This document shows positions 248 through 9,246 of a DNA stretch of 37,520 bases, one piece after another (position 1 is the stretch's first letter; each line of letters starts with the position of its first letter). The notes beneath the pieces were generated by a model. That model saw only the letters and a program-made list of their open reading frames with translations, did not search any database and was not told where the DNA came from. Origin of the DNA: an uncultured Muribaculaceae bacterium (lineage in GTDB: Bacteria; Bacteroidota; Bacteroidia; Bacteroidales; Muribaculaceae); contig CANRCT010000031.1 of NCBI GenBank assembly GCA_947629175.1, positions 1-37,520 of the forward strand. Reading direction: 5' to 3'. The position numbers and the translations under genes were made by a program.

Positions 248-592
248 GGGGCGCGGAGCCGGACAACCGCGCCAGCGGATGGACGGGACGCGGCCCGCGG
301 AGACCGGGGCAGAGGCGCACGCATCCCCGCTCGGCCGAGCCCCGGAGGGTGCGGTCCAGGCCGCCCCGCGCCAGCACAGGCCATATATAGAGGGATTCTC
401 AACCAGTGTCGACTGATAGGGTAAAGATGGAGGGTCGGTGGATGAAATGATTGAAACGAGGCTGGTTTAACAGACGTAAACAATTGGCGGGCAGGGGATT
501 TGGTTGGGGATAGTTTGGTTAAACCGCCCGAAACGTTAATAGGGGTTAATTTCAATAGCGAAACCACCACAAAAGTGTTAACAAGATATAAT

Positions 593-2651: not shown

Positions 2652-3416
2652 ATGAAGATACGACGACTATTGATGTCGGCCCTTCTTCCCATGACATGCC
2701 TGTGCGCGGCCGCACAGCAGGGTGAAGACAACGCTCCCGCAAAGGGCGACTTCACCGTGGCGGCCACCCTCGGCTACAACAGCTACACCGAAGCCACGGC
2801 TCTGCCGGGCAACCTGACCGACTATAGCGCGGCAGCATTCTCCACCGACTGGAGCAAGAAGAAGCTCACGGTGGGATTCGAGGCAGGCTATTTCGTCAGC
2901 GACAAGTGGAAGCTGAGTCTTGGAGGAGGCATCAATTTCACTCACAATCCCGGCTATGCCGACAAGCCGGGCACCATCGACGCCAACACCCCTGCGGATG
3001 CTGACGGCACGATGGGCGAGATACCCAACTATCGCGCAGTCGCGAGCCAGTATTCCTGCACGTATAATGTGGCAGTGGGCGTTGACCGCTACTTCAACAC
3101 TTCGGTGAAGAACCTGATGTGGTATGGCGGAGTCCGCGCAGGCATGGCCTACAGCCTCAACGAGCAGAAGTATGACGAGTGGACGGCGATGGGCAAGAGC
3201 GTAGGAGAGTCGTGGAGCCTCCGCGGCGCGCTCACCATAGGAGCGGACTACTACGTGCTGAAGGGTATGTATGTGGGAGCATCGGTCGATCCGTTTGCTT
3301 ACACCTACAACATGACATCCTTCCGTCCGCAGGAAGGGCTGGCACGTCTGAGCGCCGACAGCAGCAACTTTGCTATCCTGGCAGCTCCGACGGTAAAAAT
3401 CGGCTTTAGGTTTTAA
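2652..3416 (+). CDS. Small outer-membrane beta-barrel protein
   Basis: The 254-residue product has an N-terminal signal peptide (Lys/Arg-containing start, hydrophobic core, likely cleavage near residue 21 in the Ala-Ala-Gln region). The mature part is rich in alternating aromatic/polar stretches with many Gly, Tyr and Trp residues and ends in a terminal Phe (KIGFRF), the usual C-terminal signature of barrels folded by the BAM complex. Its length fits an 8- to 10-strand barrel (OmpA/OmpW-like size). It lies 43 bases behind the coiled-coil lipoprotein gene with no promoter visible between them, so the two are probably co-transcribed. The hairpin inside the 53-bp repeat 25 bases after its stop may end the transcript. 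The specific role is unknown. Confidence 0.8.
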   Translation: MKIRRLLMSALLPMTCLCAAAQQGEDNAPAKGDFTVAATLGYNSYTEATALPGNLTDYSAAAFSTDWSKKKLTVGFEAGYFVSDKWKLSLGGGINFTHNPGYADKPGTIDANTPADADGTMGEIPNYRAVASQYSCTYNVAVGVDRYFNTSVKNLMWYGGVRAGMAYSLNEQKYDEWTAMGKSVGESWSLRGALTIGADYYVLKGMYVGASVDPFAYTYNMTSFRPQEGLARLSADSSNFAILAAPTVKIGFRF

Positions 3417-3434
3417 GGCACAGATATTACACTG

Positions 3435-3487
3435 ATCGGTAGGCGGCGACGGAGTGATCCGGCGCCGCCTTCGGTGTGTGTATGGGG
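3435..3487. repeat. 53-bp direct repeat, left copy
   Basis: This 53-base segment is repeated without mismatch at 4884-4936, 1449 bases downstream in the same orientation. It contains a hairpin (3442-3469: GGCGGCG, one A/G mismatch, CGGA, loop GTGA, TCCG, CGCCGCC) that could act as a terminator for the barrel gene, although no T-run follows. The two copies bracket the ATPase/STAS-like gene pair. Confidence 0.95.
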
Positions 3488-3531
3488 AACCGTGATCGGG
3501 TAGCGAAAATAAATACTGAGATGGCTATTGC

Positions 3532-3562
3532 TTGCGCATATCGGAAAAAATCTATAGTTTTG
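3532..3562 (+). promoter_or_regulatory. Promoter of the ATPase/STAS-like cassette
   Basis: TTG at 3532-3534, a spacer of exactly 20 bases, and a full TAnnTTTG match (TAGTTTTG, 3555-3562). The start codon is 19 bases after the -7 box. The promoter lies inside the repeat-flanked segment, so the cassette carries its own transcription start. Confidence 0.7.
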
Positions 3563-3581
3563 TAACACAACTATCATTCAC

Positions 3582-4505
3582 ATGGAAATCTCCGATATAA
3601 TCAGTATACCTAACGTCCCTGCCGACACCACGACGGGAGAGCTGATGATGGCACTGTTTTCTGTTATCATAGACTCGGAGCGATGTGATAATGACATAGT
3701 CTGGGATTTTGGGAGAGTGACATCCCTTCATCCGTTTATGATCAGCGCTCTTGCTGTGTACAGAGATTCTTCCAGCAACAAAATATCGCTGTCAAATGTA
3801 AATGGGGCGCTAAAAGCCAAATTAGACGAAATTATGTTTGACGCTCCGTTTGAATCTGCTGATCGGGAAGGATCCGGAACGGATGTGTCATGTCTGTATG
3901 ACAGAAATGTGCCGCCGATCTGCAGGTTCAGTCGTATATGCCCGGATATTGATGCCATTCAGTCAGGACTATTCTCTATAATGGCGCGCAATATCCGTAA
4001 CCGAACCAGAGAATGGAACGCTTCCGGAGCTATCTCATATTTGCTTAGCGAGCTTGTATGCAATATTCAGGAACATTCCCATGCCTCTTGCGGGTATATG
4101 TATATACAGTGTGATGACAATGAAGATTGTATATCCATATGCGTGGCAGATAATGGCGTTACTATCCATGGGTCATATATTGCCGCTCAAAAAACGGCAT
4201 ATTCGTTGCTTGTAGGCGATGATCATGCTGAAGCTCTGCGCTATTCGGTCAAGGGACTGTCAACAAAAAACAGGCCTGACAATGAGTCGAGAGGCTATGG
4301 CCTTTCCACTAATCTGAATATGGTGGTAAACGGATTGGGTGGCAGTTTTATGATGCTTTCAGGCAAGGGTTTTTTCAGATGTGATGAAGATGGAGAGCAA
4401 TTTGTCAATCTTCCCGATGGACTGGCATGGGATGGAACTATGATATTGGTGAGCATCCCTCTCAAACAAAGGGCAGGATTTAATGTTTATAACTATATAG
4501 AATGA
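3582..4505 (+). CDS. STAS-like/HATPase fusion protein (partner-switch-type ATP-binding regulator)
   Basis: The 307-residue cytosolic protein has two parts. Residues about 1-95 resemble a STAS-type anti-sigma-antagonist fold (strand-turn-helix ending in LHPFMISALA). Residues about 145-295 carry a GHKL/histidine-kinase-type ATPase: the N-box SELVCNIQEHSHA (156-168), G1 box DNG (190-192) and G2 box GYGLS (238-242). No phosphoacceptor His domain, receiver or membrane segment is seen, so it is closer to the anti-sigma/serine-kinase type of HATPase than to a sensor kinase. The next gene, 7 bases on, encodes a separate STAS-like protein, which suggests a kinase/antagonist pair. The gene is visibly more AT-rich than the dnaK and barrel genes around it, consistent with acquisition. 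The assignment of fold is from motifs; the regulated process is unknown. Confidence 0.8.
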   Translation: MEISDIISIPNVPADTTTGELMMALFSVIIDSERCDNDIVWDFGRVTSLHPFMISALAVYRDSSSNKISLSNVNGALKAKLDEIMFDAPFESADREGSGTDVSCLYDRNVPPICRFSRICPDIDAIQSGLFSIMARNIRNRTREWNASGAISYLLSELVCNIQEHSHASCGYMYIQCDDNEDCISICVADNGVTIHGSYIAAQKTAYSLLVGDDHAEALRYSVKGLSTKNRPDNESRGYGLSTNLNMVVNGLGGSFMMLSGKGFFRCDEDGEQFVNLPDGLAWDGTMILVSIPLKQRAGFNVYNYIE

Positions 4506-4512
4506 TCAGAAT

Positions 4513-4848
4513 ATGAATGAGATAAGACTGAAAGAAGTGTGTGGCGCGGAAGTGCGCTCGCGGGTCAATGCAAAAAAGTTATATGGTTTGGTTGACTCAA
4601 CGACGGCGAGCGTGGATATGAATGGCGTTGTGTTTATATCCCGATCGGTTGCGGATGAATTATGTAATCTGTCAGACGCTTTTCCTGCATTGCAGTTTAT
4701 AAATATGGCGGAGGATGTGGAGCTTATGCTTACAATAGTCAGGAAAGGAAGGTCAGCCCGAAGAGTATTAAAGCCTCGCTTTCACAAAAGTGTGACTATA
4801 AATTGCACGAATATGGATGATCTTCGTGAAGCTCTTGTTTCGCATTGA
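4513..4848 (+). CDS. STAS-like domain protein (DUF4325 type)
   Basis: The 111-residue protein matches the pattern of the DUF4325 STAS-like family: a short N-terminal strand region, a central strand (VDMNGVVFIS) and the helix-start motif SRSVADEL, then a second strand and helix pair. It has no signal or membrane segment. It follows the HATPase gene by 7 bases and shares its AT-rich composition, so they form one operon. By analogy to STAS/anti-sigma pairs it may be the binding target or phosphorylation substrate of the HATPase; Ser 43 and Ser 45 in the SRSVADEL motif are candidate sites (inference). Such ATPase plus DUF4325 pairs occur in other genomes, but I know of no settled function. Confidence 0.8.
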   Translation: MNEIRLKEVCGAEVRSRVNAKKLYGLVDSTTASVDMNGVVFISRSVADELCNLSDAFPALQFINMAEDVELMLTIVRKGRSARRVLKPRFHKSVTINCTNMDDLREALVSH

Positions 4849-4883
4849 TTCTCTCCAGATTGTTTATTCGGCGTAAAGAAATT

Positions 4884-4936
4884 ATCGGTAGGCGGCGACG
4901 GAGTGATCCGGCGCCGCCTTCGGTGTGTGTATGGGG
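4884..4936. repeat. 53-bp direct repeat, right copy
   Basis: Identical to 3435-3487. It begins 36 bases after the STAS-like gene stop and holds the same hairpin (4891-4918). It could serve as the terminator of the cassette as the left copy may for the barrel gene. Confidence 0.95.
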
Positions 4937-4945
4937 GTTCATCAG

Positions 4946-4979
4946 CCGGTAGGGACGCGATAAATCGCGTCCCTACCGG
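4946..4979. repeat. Perfect 34-nt REP-like palindrome
   Basis: CCGGTAGGGACGCGAT, a two-base AA centre and the exact reverse complement. Short GC-rich palindromes around a GCGAT-ATCGC core occur as dispersed REP-type intergenic repeats in many bacteria. It starts only 9 bases after the right 53-bp repeat. It may also act as a bidirectional transcription block. Confidence 0.85.
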
Positions 4980-5117
4980 ATGGTGAAGCCTTGTGTCGGC
5001 CGGGGCTGCCTCGCGGTGTGTGCAAGTTGGTATCATGCCGGGGCGGCGTGGCAGATGACTGACAGAAATGTCAGCAGGCGTGTCAGTAGCGGAAGGCAAA
5101 TAAAGGGCTTATTTCGA

Positions 5118-5161
5118 TAACTTTAGGCGAGAGCCAACTTTTTTGGCACGCGATTTGTTTG
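5118..5161 (+). promoter_or_regulatory. Candidate dnaK promoter region
   Basis: Two near-consensus -7 boxes are present: TAACTTTA (5118-5125) and TTTGTTTG (5154-5161), each matching TAnnTTTG except at one fixed position. Neither has a clear TTG about 20 bases upstream. I see no convincing heat-shock (CIRCE or sigma-32) element. Confidence 0.35.
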
Positions 5162-5247: not shown

Positions 5248-7152
5248 ATGGGAAAGATTATAGGCATTGACCTCGGCACCACCAACTCGTGTGTAGCCGT
5301 GCTCGAAGGCAAGGATCCGGTAGTGATCCCCAACAGCGAAGGACGCAACACCACTCCTTCGGTAGTGGCTTTTGTCGACGGTGGCGAGCGTAAGGTGGGC
5401 GATCCCGCCAAGCGTCAGGCCATCACCAACCCGAAGCGTACGATCTACTCGATCAAGCGTTTCATGGGCGAGAACTGCCAGCAGGTGGCAAGCGAGATAG
5501 AGCGCGTGCCCTACAAGGTGGTATGCGGCGCCAATGACACTCCGCGCGTCGACATCGACGGCCGCGAATACACTCCGCAGGAGATCTCGGCGATGATCCT
5601 GCAGAAGATGAAGAAGACAGCCGAGGATTATCTGGGACAGGCCGTGACGGAAGCCGTCATCACCGTGCCCGCCTACTTCAACGACTCGCAGCGTCAGGCT
5701 ACGAAGGAGGCAGGCGAGATCGCCGGTCTGACCGTGAAGCGTATCGTCAACGAGCCTACCGCGGCTGCCCTTGCCTACGGTCTCGACAAGACCAACAAGG
5801 ATCAGAAGATCGCCGTGTTTGACCTCGGCGGCGGCACGTTCGATATCTCGATACTGGAGCTGGGCGACGGCGTGTTTGAGGTAAAGTCGACCAACGGCGA
5901 CACCCATCTGGGCGGCGATGATTTCGACCACGTGATCATCGACTGGCTCGCCGACGAGTTCCAGAAGGACGAGGGCGTAGACCTGCGTCAGGATCCGATG
6001 GCGCTGCAGCGCCTCAAGGAGGCTGCCGAGAAGGCCAAGATCGAGCTTTCGAGCGCTACCTCCACGGAGATCAACCTGCCGTATATCATGCCTGTCAACG
6101 GCATACCCAAGCACCTTGTGAAGACGCTGACCCGCGCAAAGTTCGAGCAGCTTGCCGACAAGCTGATCCAGGCCACCATCAAGCCCTGCGAGCAGGCGCT
6201 TAAGGATGCCGGCCTGAAGGCGAGCGACATCGACGAGGTGATACTCGTGGGCGGTTCGACCCGTATCCCCGCCATACAGCAGGTGGTGGAGAAATTCTTC
6301 GGCAAGGCTCCGTCGAAGGGCGTCAACCCCGACGAGGTAGTGGCCGTGGGCGCAGCCATCCAGGGCGGCGTGTTGAGCGGCGACGTGAAGGACGTGCTGC
6401 TGCTCGACGTAGTGCCCCTGTCGGTGGGCATCGAGACCCTCGGCGGCGTGATGACCAAGCTGATCGAGGCCAACACCACCATACCTACCCGCAAGAGTGA
6501 GACCTTCTCGACGGCTGCCGACAACCAGCCTTCGGTAGAGATCCACGTGCTGCAGGGCGAGCGCCCGATGGCCAAGGACGACAAGACCCTGGGTAAGTTC
6601 CATCTCGACGGCATCGCACCCGCTCCGCGCGGCATACCTCAGATCGAGGTGACCTTCGAGATCGACTCCAACGGTATCCTCAACGTATCGGCCAAGGATA
6701 AGGCCACGGGCAAGGAGCAGAGCATCCGCATCGAGGCTTCGAGCGGCCTGACCGACGCCGAGATCCAGCGCATGAAGGACGAGGCTGCCGCCAACGCCGC
6801 AGCCGACGCCAAGGAGAAGGAGCGCGCCGATAAGCTCAATCAGGCCGACTCCCTGATATTCCAGACCGAGAAGCAGCTCAGCGAGCTCGGCGACAAGATC
6901 CCGGCCGACGCCAAGGCTCCCATCGAGACCGCTCTGGCTCGCCTGAAAGAGGCCCACAAGGCTCAGGACATCGCCGGTATCGACTCGGCCATCAAGGAGG
7001 TGGAGAGCGCATTCGGCGCAGCCCAGCAGGCTATCCACAACGCTCAGGCGCAGGCTCAGCAGCAGGCCGGCCCTCAGCCGGGCGCACAGCAGGGCCCTCA
7101 GCCGGGCAACGGCGACGGCGTGACCGACGTGGACTTCGAGGAAGTGAAATAA
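5248..7152 (+). CDS. dnaK: Molecular chaperone DnaK (Hsp70)
   Basis: A 634-residue Hsp70 chaperone that uses ATP to bind and release unfolded polypeptides together with DnaJ and GrpE in the cytosol. The nucleotide-binding domain starts with the phosphate-1 motif [13 protein letters not shown] and includes the [27 protein letters not shown] and VGGSTRIPA motifs; then come the substrate-binding beta domain, the helical lid and a Gln/Pro/Gly-rich tail ending in DVDFEEVK. The open frame extends 35 codons upstream, but the Hsp70 N-terminus (GKIIGIDLG) fixes the start at ATG 5248. dnaJ and grpE are not adjacent, so the gene stands alone as in other Bacteroidales. A strong hairpin follows the stop. 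Confidence 0.99.
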
Positions 7153-8441: not shown

Positions 8442-8657
8442 ATGTCGGAAGAGCAGATGAACAGTTATCGGCTGACGTCGATGGAGGAGCCGGGCGACGA
8501 GCGCATGGCTCAGATTATGCGTGAGGTTGCCGAAGACGCTCGCGAAAGCACCCGCCGTGCGGCCGAGCGTGTGGCTGCCGGGATTGAGACAGCTACGCAT
8601 GAGGCACAAGAAAAATGGGGCGATGCCATAAACAGAATAAAGAGTGGCAACAAGTAA
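8442..8657 (+). CDS. Small helical protein, likely antitoxin partner of the zeta-type toxin
   Basis: A 71-residue, charged, Ala/Glu/Arg-rich protein predicted to be almost entirely helical (residues about 17-66, with an AEDARESTRRAAERVAAG core). Its last 14 bases overlap the start of the zeta-toxin-like gene in another frame, the tight coupling typical of toxin-antitoxin operons where the antitoxin comes first. It shows no obvious DNA-binding domain. An antitoxin role is inferred from position and size only. A -7-like box TAGCTTTA (8409-8416) lies 25 bases upstream. Confidence 0.7.
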   Translation: MSEEQMNSYRLTSMEEPGDERMAQIMREVAEDARESTRRAAERVAAGIETATHEAQEKWGDAINRIKSGNK

Positions 8658-9246
8658 TCATCGCCCTGTTCTGATTGTGATTGCCGGACCCAATGGGTCG
8701 GGTAAAACTTCCGTGACCTCCAAGATTCTGCATCATGAGTGGCTGGAGGATTCGGAATACATCAATCCCGACAATGTCGCACGCGATGTATTCGGAGACT
8801 GGAACAATCAGGAGTCTGTTCTGAAAGCCGCCAACTACTGCAATGAATGGAGGGAAAGATGTCTTGCAGAACGCAAAAGCCATATCTTTGAAACCGTGAT
8901 GTCGGCTGCCGATAAGGTTGATTACATTCTCAGAGCGAAAGAAGCCGGATTCTTCATCCGTCTGTTTTTCGTTTCCACTGAATCCCCGACAATCAATGCG
9001 AAGCGTGTCGCTCAACGTGTATTGGATGGAGGACATGATGTGCCAATCCCTAAAATCATATCCCGATATGACAAGTCCATTGCCAACTGCAAAATCCTAT
9101 CCGTGATAGTCGACCGGCTCTATGTATATGACAACTCTATCGAAGACGCGGAAGCCCGGCTTCTGTTCCGATTGAGCGAAGGAGAGCTTGCGAAACGCTA
9201 TGTCGAGGAGCTTCCCGGCTGGGCTTCGACCATCTTTCCGAGATAG
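8644..9246 (+). CDS. Zeta-toxin family P-loop kinase
   Basis: The 200-residue protein fits the zeta-toxin family (UDP-N-acetylglucosamine kinase-like toxins and related P-loop proteins). It has Walker A GPNGSGKT (15-22), the INPDNVARD segment after the first helix, the FETVMSAADK segment typical of the substrate site, and the ARG-rich region around QRVLDGGHDVPIPKI. The start is GTG 8644, inside the end of the upstream gene; this places the P-loop at the normal distance from the N-terminus. Zeta toxins phosphorylate a peptidoglycan precursor and are neutralised by a small helical partner; here that partner is presumably the overlapping 71-residue gene. Whether this member is toxic cannot be judged from sequence. 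Confidence 0.85.
   Translation: MATSNHRPVLIVIAGPNGSGKTSVTSKILHHEWLEDSEYINPDNVARDVFGDWNNQESVLKAANYCNEWRERCLAERKSHIFETVMSAADKVDYILRAKEAGFFIRLFFVSTESPTINAKRVAQRVLDGGHDVPIPKIISRYDKSIANCKILSVIVDRLYVYDNSIEDAEARLLFRLSEGELAKRYVEELPGWASTIFPR

Follow-up and report, generated by a model that had tools for sequence, protein, structure and literature searches.

The 53-bp direct repeat that brackets a two-gene cassette in the DNA analysed here, a 37,520-nt stretch from an uncultured Muribaculaceae bacterium (in the following called the window), is best read as a duplicated target and not as an att site. Our favoured account, which we hold with moderate confidence, is that a horizontally acquired gene pair was inserted downstream of an outer-membrane barrel gene and duplicated 53 bp of its target. 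The pair is probably a defence-type kinase with its partner. Repeats bracketing homologous pairs are well above the level seen at core genes and in adjacent sequence. They are best regarded as a property of defence-type accessory genes in Bacteroidales, this pair being one such case.

The cassette, its proteins and its neighbourhood

The left copy of the repeat (3435–3487) and the right copy (4884–4936) are identical over 53 bp and lie in the same orientation on the forward strand. Upstream, on the same strand, lies the barrel gene (2652–3416; OmpA_like, PF16961, Pfam E=4.4e-88), and the hairpin in the left copy begins 18 nt 3′ of its stop codon; downstream follows dnaK (5248–7152, forward strand; HSP70 E=1e-260). 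Between the two copies we detected only two ORFs, both on the forward strand, at 3582–4505 (gene 1, 307 aa) and 4513–4848 (gene 2, 111 aa), and no transposase ORF. The promoter-like TAGTTTTG at 3555–3562 (forward strand), read from the sequence, is a candidate promoter of the −7 type (Bacteroidetes consensus TAnnTTTG). The cassette has a GC content of 43%, compared with 56% in 1 kb on each side. All of this agrees with the initial annotation, which had described an exact repeat enclosing two genes in an AT-rich segment. Abutting the right copy is a palindrome unrelated to the repeat (4935–4990, assigned to neither strand), with 27-nt arms that are 89% complementary, a folding energy of −49 kcal/mol in 65 nt and, by eye, a REP-like appearance.

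Searching the 2.94-Mb assembly (79 contigs) with the repeat gave 12 matches, which comprised the two copies bracketing the pair and ten matches of 14–19 nt with E > 1. A dispersed repeat is ruled out, as there is no third copy in the assembly, and scattering of the 53-mer at unrelated terminators, which the initial annotation had named as evidence against a cassette, was not found. When a bracketing test was slid along the 37.5-kb window, two of 68 positions scored, both of them owing to the 53-bp repeat, and no other bracketing repeats were detected there. Folded with 10 nt of 3′ context, the repeat forms a strong hairpin, with −32.3 and −28.6 kcal/mol for the two copies, the former value belonging to the left one. 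It had been described as a terminator; the hairpin is indeed strong, but neither copy in the window has a T-run directly on its 3′ side. As a known RNA element it was rejected, both matches lying far below the gathering scores. Elsewhere in the window (8442–9246), a Zeta-toxin-like gene (8644–9246, PF06414 E=2.5e-9) follows a small ORF (8442–8657) that may encode its partner.

Gene 1 resembles VapK and CapK in joining a STAS-like domain to a GHKL ATPase/kinase domain. Its AF2 model (pLDDT 90.7) predicts a STAS-like N-terminal part, called by eye from the fold order, followed by a GHKL ATPase, and Foldseek matches to the model include histidine kinases, GyrB, Hsp90 and SpoIIAB. At the sequence level, HATPase_c was matched below its cut-off (E=6e-4), and the comparison with phrog_3364 gave E=4e-23. 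Nine residues are invariant in 54 aligned sequences (E157, N161, H165, D190, G192, G238, G240, G285 and T286); these include residues of the N, G1 and G2 boxes of GHKL ATPases. We rejected assignment to a known defence family, as PADLOC models matched neither of the two window proteins, though 37 of the 54 aligned gene 1 homologs (alignment A3) match the DrmA model. In three homologs examined singly, the DrmA match lies within positions 76–252 of 1750.

Gene 2 encodes a STAS-like protein of the DUF4325-like and VapS-like type. The predicted structure (AF2, pLDDT 92.9) is a STAS-like fold of 111 aa that lacks a wHTH. Among PDB profiles, Escherichia VapS matches best, though weakly (E=0.064), and the best Foldseek matches are mostly STAS-bearing proteins, none below E=0.05. 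PF14213 (DUF4325) matches 34 of 52 aligned members and does not match the window's own protein. The family carries the conserved motif R44-S45..D48-E49, with each of the four residues present in 99% of 88 rows and S45 invariant in 52; S45 probably corresponds to S48 of VapS.

Among 34 genomes of the genus, an 81-base stretch around the left copy was matched in G000 and G001, and the barrel gene was found in the same two, being 92% identical at the amino acid level in G001, the nearest relative found. In G001, the first 37 nt of the repeat, with one mismatch, come after the barrel gene and give way to different sequence. This partial copy continues into TCTTTTTTT, a T-run, and judged by its sequence it looks like a working terminator. 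Neither cassette gene was matched in G001, which is given as 99% complete. The contig with the barrel gene ends 63 nt past the repeat match, breaking at the junction, and on the dnaK contig homology resumes at window position 5119. G001 thus fits an empty site with one repeat copy, in which the barrel gene and dnaK would be adjacent. The initial annotation had postulated such an ancestral empty site; the lack of a match to the pair and the single partial copy would fit it, and the exact empty junction was not seen, owing to the contig break. Two copies with the genes in place in all relatives, named there as a refuting pattern, were not found, as G001 differs. A GC-rich intergenic stretch of the window (327–383) recurs in G001 near the start of a contig, upstream of dnaK (L012:27–82; 79% over 58 bp), and may represent a dispersed intergenic repeat at which assemblies break.

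Homologs of the pair are present in three of the 34 genus genomes, the window's own included; in the other two congeners they are 36–39% identical and lie beside other genes. The G003 pair lies near a tyrosine recombinase gene and a repressor-like gene, both named by eye. The pair's distribution in the genus and its absence from G001 support the view that it behaves as an accessory cassette, and to this extent the earlier description of a mobile or excisable cassette stands; the part of it that made a terminator the integration site does not, as set out below.

Homologous pairs and their bracketing repeats

Gene 1 homologs were found in 12 of 397 genomes of the family, in four phage records (two of which are the same phage) and in one plasmid record. 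Scanning GTDB species genomes yielded 88 relatives, the best 80 of which we retained, and a further 10 viral contigs, some of them near-identical, came from IMG/VR; together with the window these are the 91 loci analysed in the following. In 89 of them a STAS-like ORF follows the kinase gene, and in the other two the kinase gene is at most 21 and 258 nt from a contig end. We looked for a free form of the element and rejected this candidate: a 25-base core of the repeat had no exact counterpart in viral contigs, which also lacked matches to single-sequence patterns of gene 1, and window positions 3400–5120 had no DNA match among phages and plasmids.

Two Prevotellaceae records carry cassettes that are 98.5% identical over 1367 bp (L068:1581–2946 and L071:2163–3527). 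The shared stretch runs from about 54 nt before the start of the gene 1 match to about 61 nt past gene 2, and the two longest other matches between these records (318 and 199 bp) have 77–80% identity, a pattern that would fit a recent exchange of the cassette alone. In two different loci the pair is followed by a DUF7724 gene (L064:5533–5850 and L130:5659–5961), possibly a partner of the pair. Phage psiM100 contains a distant kinase-STAS pair adjoining 125-bp repeats, within its 'inserted fragment IFa' (L042 4343–7460). We rejected IFa as a parallel insertion, since psiM2 (L204) keeps the ORFD tail and a loss in psiM2 reads better.

At 19 bracketed loci the repeats measure 34–475 bp. Compared with one another at E≤0.01, they gave a sole match of 13 nt (E=0.009), and on this comparison the repeats of different loci are unrelated. 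Where readable, they consist of host DNA, namely 3′ ends of genes, 5′ ends or upstream regions (gene names assigned by eye). Among 3′ ends we recognized the last codons of pheT (L072), 353 bp of carB (L080, where the carB frame runs off the locus), the last 34 bp around the end of ispE (L129), and the ends of an acetyltransferase gene (L126), an XRE-type gene (L077) and a WYL-domain gene (L100, 41-bp repeats). The 5′ ends belong to genes for a UDP-glucose dehydrogenase (L121) and a glycosyltransferase (L120), the upstream region of the next gene is repeated in L081 and L107, and in the window the duplicated stretch is an intergenic hairpin. Where the repeat is coding (eight loci), a long open frame persists in one neighbour, the second copy being a fragment; wherever it can be read, the duplicated stretch spares the neighbouring gene. 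The initial annotation had suggested a terminator hairpin as the integration site, which is not supported by homologous cassettes, whose repeats are unrelated to the 53-mer and in part coding, at 3′ as well as 5′ ends.

In several cases the two copies of a repeat differ, including two cases from isolate records (95% identity in L072 and 92% in L120), so that these pairs are not assembly errors. The right copy in L118 lacks the middle of the gene, as in a gene-plus-flank duplicate with an internal deletion, and could be read as the decay of a longer duplicate; L117, from the same locus, contains this right-hand remnant but lacks a left copy over the sequence available. An exact empty site was seen for none of the loci; for the ispE-rpsP site of L129, ispE was matched in none of 30 S16 loci. 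The ends of the cassettes are no more alike than swapped ends (mean longest inverted word 6.2 versus 5.8), the longest end word common to two loci being 10 nt, which leaves a transposon with inverted ends unsupported.

To count such repeats, we initially compared the 2.5-kb stretch preceding gene 1 with the equally long one following gene 2 and scored direct matches at E≤1e-3. These were present in 26 of the 91 loci, some only 20 nt long, and absent from the other 65, which counts against our preferred account, though old repeat copies would be expected to decay. A fixed rule, with cut-offs picked after inspection of the data, considered 1.5 kb on each side, with at least 1 kb present, and accepted repeats of at least 40 bp and at least 85% identity. 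Under this rule 14 of 74 loci were bracketed, or 13 of 66 non-redundant loci with the window excluded. The 17 loci dropped from the 91 had flanks under 1 kb, bracketed L084 and L110 among them. Ten entries, near-identical or same-locus ones and the window itself, were dropped for the non-redundant set, in which bracketed L118 was kept and its unbracketed same-locus partner L117 dropped; the reverse choice gives 12 of 66. The weak or short repeats of L062, L096 and L119 fail the rule, and those of L100, L107 and L129 lie beyond 1.5 kb and are uncounted.

Controls were the best-scoring loci of at least 3.1 kb, which left 25 of 29 for Abi_2, 23 of 30 for TIR_2, 28 of 30 for C5 DNA methylases and 24 of 30 for ribosomal S16. 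The S16 control yielded no bracketed locus (0/24; p=0.017 against 13/66 for the pair). Of 66 positions beside the pair in the same loci, four had a match at E≤1e-6, and two of these four met the rule (2/66; p=0.005). The accessory controls taken singly gave 3/25 for Abi_2, 2/23 for TIR_2 and 0/28 for the methylases. Pooled, they were bracketed less often than the pair (5/76; p=0.023, and 0.007–0.04 over six cut-offs, which were picked after the data had been seen), an excess that depends on the methylases with their 0/28; with L117 swapped in for L118 (12/66), the accessory comparisons gave p=0.04 and 0.07. Many TIR matches fall in frames longer than 600 aa, in which flanks of 1.5 kb may not reach past the gene, and without these the TIR count is 2/14. 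Against Abi_2 and short-frame TIR genes (≤600 aa) combined, the excess is not significant (5/39; p=0.43), and adding the methylases to these short-frame controls gave 5/67 (p=0.045). Because no significant excess remains over Abi and TIR genes alone, bracketing looks general for defence-type genes. The bracketed Abi_2 and TIR control loci L158, L159, L167, L183 and L196 have direct repeats of 43–481 bp. In L137 (613–1768), a Kinase-PolyVal gene (PF18762, 728–1633, minus strand) is bracketed by a 100-bp direct repeat, so the footprint extends beyond the kinase-STAS pair.

Origin of the repeats

In the account we prefer, a two-gene transcription unit made up of the candidate promoter, the STAS-GHKL kinase gene and the gene for its STAS partner would have been acquired horizontally, and its insertion 3′ of the barrel gene would have duplicated 53 bp of the target, the hairpin included, thereby generating the repeat. 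An insert joined to target position p+n on its left and to position p on its right leaves just the pattern of a duplicated target. Such an event may have come about by a template switch or break repair that resumed upstream of the departure point, by staggered breaks that were filled in, or by the joining of a circle or its entry through a single crossover. Duplicating rather than deleting insertions may have been kept because they spare the neighbouring genes. The initial annotation had offered repeat-mediated duplication as its alternative; this comes nearer to our reading, with the difference that an insertion duplicated the target. That the cassette has moved is likewise deduced from comparing sequences.

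An unlikely competitor takes the 53-mer as attL and attR of a tyrosine-recombinase element, with the integrase lost or acting in trans and the hairpin arms as core binding sites. Duplicated 3′ ends of genes are typical of tyrosine-recombinase integration. L100 (2118–5292) has a tyrosine recombinase gene (PF00589 E=2.9e-18) together with the kinase and STAS genes between its repeats at the 3′ end of the WYL gene, a classical att arrangement which suggests that some relatives travel that way, and the position of the G003 pair near a recombinase gene points in the same direction. However, L100 is the only locus with an integrase inside the repeats, and no such ORF lies between those of the window. 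Two tyrosine recombinase queries, which cover part of the family, found homologs in two of 23 bracketed loci and two of 68 others, and none in ORFs of at least 150 aa in the 37.5-kb window. The repeats, unrelated across the 19 loci, can be as long as 475 bp, with 5′ ends and upstream regions among them, and a word test revealed no motif common to the cassette ends. Repeats that vary by locus do not suit a dedicated recombinase that uses a single att sequence.

We regard it as still less probable that a circle made up of the cassette plus a piece of host DNA was integrated by single-crossover homologous recombination, the repeat being the common homology. A single crossover would account for variable repeat lengths and spared genes, and the right copy of L118 can be read accordingly as a duplicated gene with its flank; yet it leaves unexplained how a host stretch was acquired by the initial cassette at every new locus, and lengths of 34–60 bp are short for RecA. 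Least credible among these alternatives is that the pair is ancestral between the barrel gene and dnaK, that the second hairpin arose via local duplication or gene conversion, and that G001 lost the pair. In its favour, there is a single close relative, whose junction is unassembled, and L117 illustrates that a remnant can adjoin the pair with no second copy nearby. Against it stand the diverged pairs beside other genes in the other two congeners (36–39% identity), the low GC content of the cassette (43% versus 56%) and the recurrence of flanking repeats around homologous pairs.

Insertion with target duplication, our preferred reading, could be extended to the highly speculative idea that Bacteroidales defence-type genes, this pair included, act as minimal selfish units lacking a transposase, which enter at gene boundaries and produce long target duplications, where the pair, if ssDNA-sensing, might favour the repair events that capture it.

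Comparison with known systems

Insertion with long target duplication was reportedly proposed by Nobusato et al. in 2000 for restriction-modification (RM) genes of Helicobacter pylori. The term is used for these genes in three papers (PMC1643837, PMC3031569, PMC3874152). There, the insertions consist of small gene units with long, variable duplications (on the order of 100 bp), and no known mobile element is linked to them. The window agrees in its 53-bp exact direct repeat in two copies and in the lack of a transposase and of terminal inverted repeats, and the arrangement recurs with unrelated repeats in 13 of 66 loci. It differs in its cargo, here a kinase-STAS pair, and in its hosts, which belong to Bacteroidales. 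The DNA methylases, a small control, gave 0/28 here and do not echo the published RM link.

IS1634-type insertion sequences also produce long, variable direct repeats as target duplications. The likeness ends there, since the present cassette has no transposase ORF and no terminal inverted repeats. Of the hallmarks of tyrosine-recombinase elements, an integrase inside the repeats is absent from the window and present in L100, and a common att core is absent. Our literature search, whose coverage excluded most subscription journals, found no paper on similar insertions in Bacteroides or generally, and a search on STAS-like defence found nothing. These results address the question of how single defence-type genes or pairs move with no transposase, integrase or phage attached. 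The kinase-STAS pair has the same footprint as RM genes in about one fifth of the Bacteroidales loci tested, as do Abi and TIR genes, and the ribosomal gene does not. This footprint makes the insertion process countable and testable in strain collections.

At the protein level, the combination of a GHKL kinase with a STAS fold is shared with the partner-switch pairs SpoIIAB/SpoIIAA and RsbW/RsbV; SpoIIAB structures 1til and 1tid rank 23 and 47 among the Foldseek matches of gene 1 (TMt 0.68–0.69), and RsbV 6m36 ranks 8 for gene 2 (E=0.28). In contrast to both systems, the kinase has an extra N-terminal STAS-like domain and the pair is accessory and found in phages too.

Closer parallels come from CapK-CapS and VapKSC. 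According to Chambers et al. 2026, the kinase CapK is activated by ssDNA and phosphorylates CapS; VapK and VapS are proposed to act alike, with VapS releasing the toxin VapC. The same work shows that vapKSC confers protection against a phage (PMC13373217). As described there, the VapKSC arrangement resembles ours in an adjacent STAS-GHKL kinase with no HTH (as VapK), a small STAS protein, and a conserved serine near a helix start of the latter (S45 here). By analogy, the pair may form an ssDNA- or DNA-damage-responsive kinase-substrate module of the VapK/VapS sort with its target encoded elsewhere; we put the chances that it works like VapK/VapS in this way at about even. Unlike CapK-CapS, the STAS protein has no wHTH and no immune operon follows, dnaK being next. 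The third gene of VapKSC, encoding the PIN nuclease VapC, is absent between the repeats, and gene 2 is followed by the right repeat copy and then dnaK; the pair is not a member of VapKSC as defined. The pair looks like a VapK/VapS module that lacks an adjacent toxin, so that one has to ask what it controls.
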